A stretch of DNA of 32,092 bases from Halobacteriales archaeon QH_2_65_14 (GTDB taxonomy: Archaea > Halobacteriota > Halobacteria > Halobacteriales > Haloarculaceae), in assembly GCA_003021285.1 (NCBI GenBank), contig PXQO01000029.1:1-32092 (forward strand). Direction: 5' to 3'. Position numbers and translations under genes: made by a program. Of the stretch, positions 12,971 to 18,176 are shown in pieces. A model generated the notes under the pieces. The model saw only the letters and a program-made list of their open reading frames with translations, did no database searches and was not told the DNA's origin. The first letter of the stretch is position 1; every line of letters starts with the position of its first letter.

Positions 12971-13555
12971 TCAGGGCCCGCGCATCCGGATGCGGAGGAC
13001 GTACAGCAGTTTTGCCTCGGGGTCGACGCGACAGCCCAGGCGGAACGGGCCGACGAGGAGTTTGTCGTGGGGAGCCTCCGCCAGCGCGTCGAGGTCCTCG
13101 GTGGGGTTGCGCCACTCGCCGGTGACGAGTTCGTCGAGTTTGCCGACGATGCGCTCGCGTGCGTAGTCGTCGCGCCGGTCGAGGTCCGCCTTCGCAGTGT
13201 CGGTCAGCACCCAGTCCCACTCGTTGGTCTCGACGGCCGGGCGGTCGGTTCCGACCTCGGCCGTAATCTCCGCGCTCGTGTGCAGGTTGCCCTCGTGGAT
13301 GTCGACCTCGCCGGCGAGCATGGCCCGCAGGTCGCCGCGGTCGAACTCCGGATGTGTGACCGCGTCGACCAGCGCGTGTTCGAAAAACTCCTCGCGGCTG
13401 GCGTAGCCGAGCTGTTCCCACCGTTCGTCTCCCTCCCCGAGCAACGAATCGTCGAGCGCGAGTTCGACTGTCGTCTTCCCGGACGCCGCCTCGTCGGTCG
13501 TCTCCTCGGCCTCTTTCTCGACCGTCGCCGTCCCGCGTGCGTCTTCCTGGGCCAT
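12971..13555 (-). CDS. Antitoxin (RHH-like)-toxin (RelE-like) domain fusion protein
   Basis: N-half DSLLGEGDERWEQLGYASREEFFEHALVDAVTHPE matches the antitoxin at 17904-18176; C-half EWDWVLTDTAKADLDRRDDYARERIVGKLDELVTGEWRNPTEDL matches the toxin remnant at 17718-17911. Confidence 0.75.
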   Translation of the reverse strand: MAQEDARGTATVEKEAEETTDEAASGKTTVELALDDSLLGEGDERWEQLGYASREEFFEHALVDAVTHPEFDRGDLRAMLAGEVDIHEGNLHTSAEITAEVGTDRPAVETNEWDWVLTDTAKADLDRRDDYARERIVGKLDELVTGEWRNPTEDLDALAEAPHDKLLVGPFRLGCRVDPEAKLLYVLRIRMRGP

Positions 13556-13620
13556 ACGTCTGTGGTGCGCGGGGGGTTCGATAAACGTTTTGCCCGACTA
13601 TCAGGCCTGAAATTGCACCG

Positions 13621-14283
13621 TCACGGCTCGACCCGCGTCGTAAGCGCGAGCCCGCTCCCGACCGGGACGAGCGTGGTGTCGAACGCCTCGTCGGCACGGA
13701 CCGTCCCGATGTAGTCGGCTACGCCCCGGGTGCTCTCGTCGTCGGGGAGCACCTCGCCGGACTCGAAGTACGCGAGCAGGTCCTCGACGTCGATTGGCCC
13801 CCGGATCATGTTGTCCGCGACCACGACCGAGCCGACGGGGAGCTGGTCGCGGATGGTCTCGAACGCGTCGGCGTAGCGGTCCTTCTGGTGGTCGACGAGG
13901 ACGACGTCGAACTCCCCGTCGTACCGTTCGATTGTCTCCATCGCGTCGCCGTACTCGAAGGTCGCGCGGTCCGCGAACCCGGCGCGCTCGAAGAAGTCCT
14001 CGGCCATGGCGAGTTCGTCCTCGTCGAACTCGGTGAGGATTATCTCGCCGTCGTCGGGCATCCCCTCCAGGAACCAGTACGCCGAGTAGCCAAAGCCCGA
14101 TCCGAACTCGAAGACCCGTCGCGCCCCCCGCATCGTGGCAATCGCCCGCAGGAGTCCACCCGCGTCGGGGCCGATTATCGGGAACCCTTCCTCCTCGGCG
14201 TGGGCGGCCATCTCCGCCTGTATCTCGTCGTGTGTCGGTCCGGTGGCTCGGAGGTACCGCTTGACTGTCTCTGAAAGGTACAT
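13621..14283 (-). CDS. SAM-dependent O-methyltransferase (caffeoyl-CoA OMT-like)
   Basis: RVFEFGSGFGYSAYWFLEGMP, FDVVLVDHQKDRYADAFE, VADNMIRG. Confidence 0.9.
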   Translation of the reverse strand: MYLSETVKRYLRATGPTHDEIQAEMAAHAEEEGFPIIGPDAGGLLRAIATMRGARRVFEFGSGFGYSAYWFLEGMPDDGEIILTEFDEDELAMAEDFFERAGFADRATFEYGDAMETIERYDGEFDVVLVDHQKDRYADAFETIRDQLPVGSVVVADNMIRGPIDVEDLLAYFESGEVLPDDESTRGVADYIGTVRADEAFDTTLVPVGSGLALTTRVEP

Positions 14284-17717: not shown

Positions 17718-17911
17718 TCAATCGTCCCCCGGTTGGTATGCATTACCCCGTCGTTCGATTGTATAGAGTTCCAGGTAATCGTCGGGTTCGCGCCACTGGT
17801 CGGCCACTATCTCGTCGAGTTTATCGGTGATTCGTTCTGTGCATGGTCGTCAAGATCGTCGTATGTGCGCTTCGCGGGAGTCCGGAACTGCCAGTTCCAC
17901 TCGTCACTCAT
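17718..17911 (-). pseudogene. RelE-like toxin remnant (frameshift plus internal deletion)
   Basis: MSDEWNWQFRTPAKRTYDDLDDHAQ then frame change to ERITDKLDEIVADQWREPDDYLELYTIERRGNAYQPGDD*; overlaps antitoxin stop by ATGAGTGA. Confidence 0.8.
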
Positions 17912-18176
17912 CGTTTCCGAGAATCTCGTCGCGTAAGAACGTCTCGCTCTCGCCCGCCCGGCGTGCGTGTTCGACGGCGGCAATCTCCTTCCAGCTCTCT
18001 CGGGTTAGTTCGGGATGCCGGACGGCATCACGGAGCGCCTCTCGGACGAACTCACTGCGGCTGTTGTACCCTTCATCGCGCCAGGCCGCGTCGATGTCGG
18101 CGAGCAATGCTTCCGTGAGTCGAATGTTGATGTTCGTTTTCTCCGGGTCGGCGTCGTTTGTATCTGTATCAGACAT
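17904..18176 (-). CDS. RHH-type antitoxin
   Basis: KTNINIRLTEALLADIDAAWRDEGYNSRSEFVREALRDAVRHPE. Confidence 0.88.
   Translation of the reverse strand: MSDTDTNDADPEKTNINIRLTEALLADIDAAWRDEGYNSRSEFVREALRDAVRHPELTRESWKEIAAVEHARRAGESETFLRDEILGNDE

Follow-up and report, generated by a model that had tools for sequence, protein, structure and literature searches.

A fused RHH-RelE antitoxin-toxin gene of Halovenus, probably a domesticated toxin-antitoxin module

Toxin-antitoxin (TA) modules in which both partners are joined in a single polypeptide have been described before. A survey of fused mono-gene TA modules of the BECR fold catalogues 195 examples, which include 19 prokaryotic ParD-ParE antitoxin-toxin fusions as well as RHH-YoeB fusions (PMC11980606). 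Most catalogued TA fusions are isolated sequences, and it is hard to tell whether they are active, dead or domesticated. For the unfused RelBE system, the mode of action is known in some detail. RelB displaces the C-terminal helix of RelE, on which Tyr87 lies, and thereby inhibits the toxin (PMC3507626), and cleavage by RelE is lowered by the R61A, R81A and Y87A substitutions and is not lowered by K54A or Y87F, the latter being active in vitro (PMC2807027). On the antitoxin side, N5 and R7 of RelB, which lie in the same RHH strand, contact bases, while S28 contacts the backbone (PMC2812701).

The haloarchaeal relatives of these systems are bicistronic RHH-RelE/ParE type II modules (with HPEFNRADLKAML in the antitoxin and RKRGGDAYRSDDD in the toxin tail), which consist of two overlapping genes (ATGA) and have an operator-like repeat, DNA-contact residues and a Tyr-containing tail. 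The gene described here has its two halves in the same order; identity to these modules is about 60% for the toxin half and 41-47% for the antitoxin half. It lacks all of the features just listed.

The window, by which we mean the whole stretch of 32,092 nucleotides that was analysed, belongs, as contig 20, to a haloarchaeal genome that is 64% complete, and is placed in Halovenus by named relatives. The fused gene (P0002) occupies positions 12971-13555 and encodes 194 amino acids in a single open frame; the preliminary description had reported the reading frame at this position without a strand, which is the minus strand. From the N-terminus, the protein comprises an RHH-like part with replaced DNA-contact residues (residues 28-67; 13355-13474), the segment with which the antitoxin wraps the toxin (residues 68-105, HPEFDRGDLRAMLAGEVDIHEGNLHTSAEIT...; 13241-13354), which is conserved with split antitoxins, and a RelE/ParE-like toxin half (residues 111-193; 12977-13225), all on the minus strand. 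On this strand there is also a TATA-like box (TTTATC, 13580-13585) 30 nt before the ATG and, further upstream, an O-methyltransferase-like gene (13621-14283; family name given by eye). An assembly artefact is excluded by four orthologues that carry the same one-frame fusion, one of which comes from a complete genome.

That the antitoxin and the toxin of a TA pair, in this usual order, are united in one protein had been read from the sequence alone, and profile comparisons bear out both the RHH and the RelE assignment. The profile of the fused sequences matches that of 14 split toxins with E=1.2e-37 and that of 14 split RHH antitoxins, in strand-helix-helix order, with E=4.8e-21 (hhalign). In a direct scan the toxin half reaches Pfam ParE_toxin with E=5.4e-4 (20.9 bits, against a curated cut-off of 23 bits), and a split relative of this half is ParE_toxin at E=3.9e-9. 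The split toxin profile in turn matches Thermus thermophilus RelE (PDB 2khe, E=1.1e-6) and Escherichia coli RelE (E=0.0098), and the toxin half belongs to the RelE/ParE (BECR-fold) superfamily by both sequence and fold. Scanned directly against Pfam and NCBIfam, the fused N-terminal half gave almost nothing (RHH_1 at E=0.05 in one orthologue), so its RHH relation needs the split antitoxins as intermediates. With a BECR-fold domain and an antitoxin domain in one gene, the protein is a fused mono-gene BECR TA module; having one frame rather than two separate products, it is not a bicistronic type II module. A match to a PDB "lysozyme" entry (5i8l) rests on 28 residues in a three-fold repeat and was rejected. 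Among the IMG/VR viral contigs, neither the split toxins nor the fusion had any relatives.

The structure models agree with this assignment at low to medium confidence. Both were computed from alignments of five rows, five being the number of fused sequences known; that of the window protein is poor (pLDDT 53), while that of the H. rubra fusion reaches pLDDT 66, with most of the C-terminal half above 70. The H. rubra model has the fold order beta-alpha-alpha-(alpha)-beta-beta-beta, and its best PDB matches are RelE or RelBE complexes, including Mycobacterium tuberculosis RelBE2, E. coli RelBE and an archaeal RelE-RelB. The top 12 Foldseek matches are all TA complexes or toxins, nearly all of the RelE/YoeB type, with probabilities of 0.95-1.00; having E values of 0.004 and weaker, they lend support to a RelE-like fold rather than prove it. 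The RHH helices are modelled where they are expected, with the preceding strand appearing only in the low-confidence window model, and the strand-helix that ends the toxin-wrapping segment is the best-predicted part of the models.

The only other match of the fused frame in its own genome is a split locus in the same window, found with E=1.2e-14 over residues 16-156 and spanning two stops. This is the locus to which the preliminary description had related the fusion, and the relation holds for both halves. The N-terminal half aligns with the antitoxin at 17904-18176 (41% identity over 64 aa, E=8e-13), and the fusion does retain a segment that the split toxin has lost, namely the FRLGC stretch, which lies within about 30 internal residues missing there. 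The antitoxin itself (P0003, minus strand) is an intact RHH protein (Pfam RHH_1, E=1.1e-7) that tree placement assigns to a second split subfamily. The RelE-like toxin (17718-17911, minus strand), which overlaps the antitoxin by ATGA, is broken: three-frame translation reveals a frameshift after ...SPINSTR and an internal deletion, leaving two fragments in different frames. The locus as a whole (17718-18176) is thus an orphan antitoxin adjoining a frameshifted, internally deleted toxin. It was considered as the direct parent of the fusion and rejected on the basis of the trees and of closer split relatives in other genomes, the closest of which have about 60% identity in the toxin half.

Fused orthologues are present in five of 18 Halovenus genomes (that of the window, a MAG, H. 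aranensis, H. rubra and H. salina). Among 151 genomes of the family and 400 genomes sampled across the class Halobacteria, a single uninterrupted frame of this fusion type was found in these five only, the class-wide result holding for the genomes drawn; elsewhere the two halves are split, mostly as overlapping genes in different frames, and in some cases in frame with one stop between them. The five fused genes share 60-71% identity and are largely syntenic: the O-methyltransferase-like gene is the immediate upstream neighbour in three loci and stands about 2.5 kb upstream in a fourth, that of H. salina; on the downstream side, four loci share an acidic conserved gene. The fused sequences group as a single clade with 100% support in the trees of both halves, on stems of 0.69 and 0.82 changes per site. 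One clade on a long stem in both trees points to one fusion event, rapid change, and then conservation. The fused genes have pairwise dN/dS values of 0.09-0.29 over their whole length and 0.05-0.20 in the C-terminal half; these values are approximate because dS is high, and purifying selection by this measure is stronger on the C-terminal than on the N-terminal half. A related genome (G108, whose tree placement has 63% support) has the upstream gene at 76% identity with no fusion beside it, which implies that the fusion is either dispensable or young.

Two other copies, both short and degenerate and differently composed, are also joined in frame. An independent fusion of 153 aa (L019:1330-1791, plus strand) has the toxin-wrapping segment deleted, with an intact toxin tail and an internal ATG. 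A fusion of the second subfamily (L060, about 140789-141178 of G017:C2, the same coordinates as on Haloarcula litorea plasmid NZ_CP119780.1) combines a remnant antitoxin without RHH and a full toxin with its Tyr tail, and is annotated as a hypothetical protein. Same-frame split pairs or remnants with a single stop between or inside the halves are found at L053, L054, L055, G214, G200 and G422; in such copies one substitution could give a fusion.

For the residue-level comparison, the reference set consists of 51 split toxins and 45 split antitoxins. The toxin half is changed at its end. All five fused proteins terminate in R-[MI]-R-G-x (RMRGP in the window), where split toxins run on with GGDAYRSDDD; the tail and its Tyr, present in 92% of the split toxins, are absent from all five. 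Besides the lost A-Y...D of the tail, near-universal positions of the split toxins that are changed in every fusion are few: L128R, P157 (to A, S or D) and R167L. In the profile alignment to E. coli RelE, which as a basis for residue mapping is a weak match (E=0.0098), K54, R61 and R81 correspond to a K, an R and an R of the split toxins, whose conserved Tyr is offset from Y87 by a single residue. The equivalents of K54, R61 and R81 (K165, R172 and R192) are retained in all five fusions, while the split Arg aligned with R56 is Leu in all five. Of the mRNase catalytic set of RelE (R61, R81 and Tyr87), the fusions have R172 and R192 and lack the Tyr with its tail. Taken with the RelE mutant data, loss of the Tyr leads us to expect reduced RNase activity; the fusion probably has none, with some residual activity being conceivable as the three basic equivalents are kept and RelE with Y87F alone is still active in vitro. 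No in-frame ATG, GTG or TTG occurs at the toxin junction in any fused gene, so separate synthesis of the toxin is unlikely.

The antitoxin half shows a similar division between what is kept and what is lost. Strong conservation across split and fused forms is seen in the segment that follows the RHH part (HPEFDRxDLRAML..EVDIQ). Within the RHH part, the Arg at window residue 59, which is invariant in the 45 split antitoxins (100%), is Glu in all five fusions, the Arg at residue 63 (98% in split antitoxins) is Val or Ala, and the Arg/Lys of the RHH strand is replaced by Ala or Glu. The backbone-contacting Ser equivalent to RelB S28 is lost in four fusions and kept in one. The net charge of this part is -8 to -11 in the fusions versus -3 to +2 in split antitoxins. 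Neither the base and backbone contacts of an RHH autorepressor nor its operator is recognisable: every fusion has substitutions at the strand N/R and at the helix Arg, four have lost the Ser, and the upstream repeat is at chance level.

The upstream regions independently show a corresponding loss. Between the TATA-like box and the ATG, 29 of 31 distinct upstream sequences of the first split subfamily have an ACACA-N6-ACACA direct repeat with no more than one mismatch, compared with the 4-5 that are usual in shuffled sequences, and one of the two without it (L055) is itself a damaged copy. Upstream of all five fused genes, this repeat is at chance level (4-6 mismatches). In the second split subfamily, a TAATAC-N5-TAATAC repeat stands at the same place. 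Palindromic operators were not found in the upstream regions, the conserved element being the direct repeat. Given their 11-bp period, the repeats of both subfamilies (upstream regions of L011-L035 and L053-L084) are probably RHH operators. The TATA-like box itself has been maintained, and every fused gene has it precisely 30 nt ahead of its ATG, which implies a leaderless transcript.

We consider it probable, with good but not full confidence, that the gene is a domesticated RHH-RelE TA module, in which two genes were fused once in an ancestor of part of Halovenus to give a self-capped, non-autoregulated protein with a tightly constrained RelE-like core. At the sequence level, the fusion, the single clade, the coordinated losses and the purifying selection are all evident; from these we infer a self-capped fold, absence of autoregulation, and low or absent RNase activity. 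In the split parent, the antitoxin would have inhibited the RelE-like toxin by displacing the C-terminal segment with the catalytic tyrosine, and would have repressed the operon through a two-site operator at low toxin:antitoxin ratio. Fusion would fix the ratio of antitoxin to toxin at 1:1 and cap the toxin half permanently in cis, which would make the displaced tail superfluous and free for loss. As repression in E. coli is relieved by an excess of toxin (conditional cooperativity; PMC11980606), operator binding at a fixed 1:1 ratio would be useless, and both the RHH face and the operator would be expected to decay. On this model the operator, the DNA-contacting face and the catalytic tail would have been released from selection jointly by the fusion, and autoregulation would have been removed.

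What the protein does at present is suggested by the strong constraint on the C-terminal half and the three basic residues kept there, which argue for a binding role of the RelE-like core. Its function is most likely the binding of a partner (protein, RNA or ribosome), rather than RNA cutting or DNA repression. An RNA- or ribosome-binding role is possible given the retained equivalents of RelE K54, R61 and R81, and the narrower proposal that a selfish module became a conserved non-toxic protein, which uses its RelE-like groove and these residues to bind RNA or the ribosome as a regulator, is made only tentatively. Of the readings offered in the preliminary description, a domesticated protein with lost toxicity is the one we favour; a domesticated regulator that acts by binding DNA is unlikely, given the acidic residues with which the DNA-contact face has been rebuilt.

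A self-inhibited or proteolytically activated toxin, also suggested there, is disfavoured by the joint loss of the Tyr tail, the junction start codon, the DNA contacts and the presumed operator. In its EzeT-like form, the N-terminal half would cap an active RelE half until proteolysis or stress frees it. Fusions with cis inhibition do exist, EzeT being an example (PMC4826407), and the conserved capping segment and basic residues matching K54, R61 and R81 would suit such a toxin, but the tail missing from all five proteins is the very segment that the antitoxin displaces (PMC3507626), and the Leu found in all five in place of the Arg aligned with RelE R56 also speaks against an active toxin; we regard this explanation as unlikely.

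Somewhat less likely still is an anti-addiction function, as demonstrated for ccd (PMC2654758), in which the antitoxin half would act in trans on homologous toxins encoded by split modules on plasmids and neutralise them. Split relatives of the fusion do sit on haloarchaeal plasmids, and the toxin-wrapping segment is kept; yet within the fusion the antitoxin half should already be engaged in cis by its own toxin half, and it is the C-terminal half that is under the stronger selection. An intact split copy of the closest subfamily is present in none of the five genomes with the fusion and is found in two genomes without it (G101 and G115), a pattern (0/5 versus 2-3/13) too small to be meaningful. 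As for a functionless remnant in decay, degenerate split and fused copies are common in these genomes (window 17718-17911; L019, L055, L060) and a Phd-RelE fusion of Ralstonia is thought to be inactive (PMC4826407), but five species have kept the open frame, the TATA spacing, 60-71% identity, dN/dS of 0.09-0.29 and the same truncation point, and decay is accordingly very improbable. A domesticated, self-capped module thus remains the preferred reading.

For the Halovenus gene, comparison is possible with the split parents, at the operator, in synteny and across five diverged orthologues; together these provide a record of a TA module losing its toxin chemistry and autoregulation while the protein stays. 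The possible conversion of TA modules to ordinary genes is directly testable in H. aranensis, H. rubra and H. salina, which are culturable. No description of this haloarchaeal fusion was found in the open-access literature. The fusions of the BECR mono-gene survey share with it the antitoxin-toxin order, a RelE/ParE-fold toxin and a single polypeptide; the survey suggests that at least some are functional and contains, in its available part, no domesticated fusion from haloarchaea that has lost operator, DNA contacts and Tyr tail together (PMC11980606). The Ralstonia eutropha protein (YP_293189) is likewise an antitoxin-RelE fusion, with truncations thought to abolish both toxin and antitoxin function; its antitoxin is Phd and it may be an evolutionary dead end (PMC4826407), whereas the Halovenus fusion has an RHH antitoxin and is under purifying selection in five species. 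EzeT, an epsilon-zeta type fusion of E. coli that was probably born by operon fusion, similarly has its antitoxin domain in cis on the toxin, but its toxin is a kinase of unrelated fold and is still active (PMC4826407). TA fusions as such are therefore already known, and the Halovenus case is unusual in that operator, DNA contacts and catalytic tail have been lost in concert from a gene on which selection continues.
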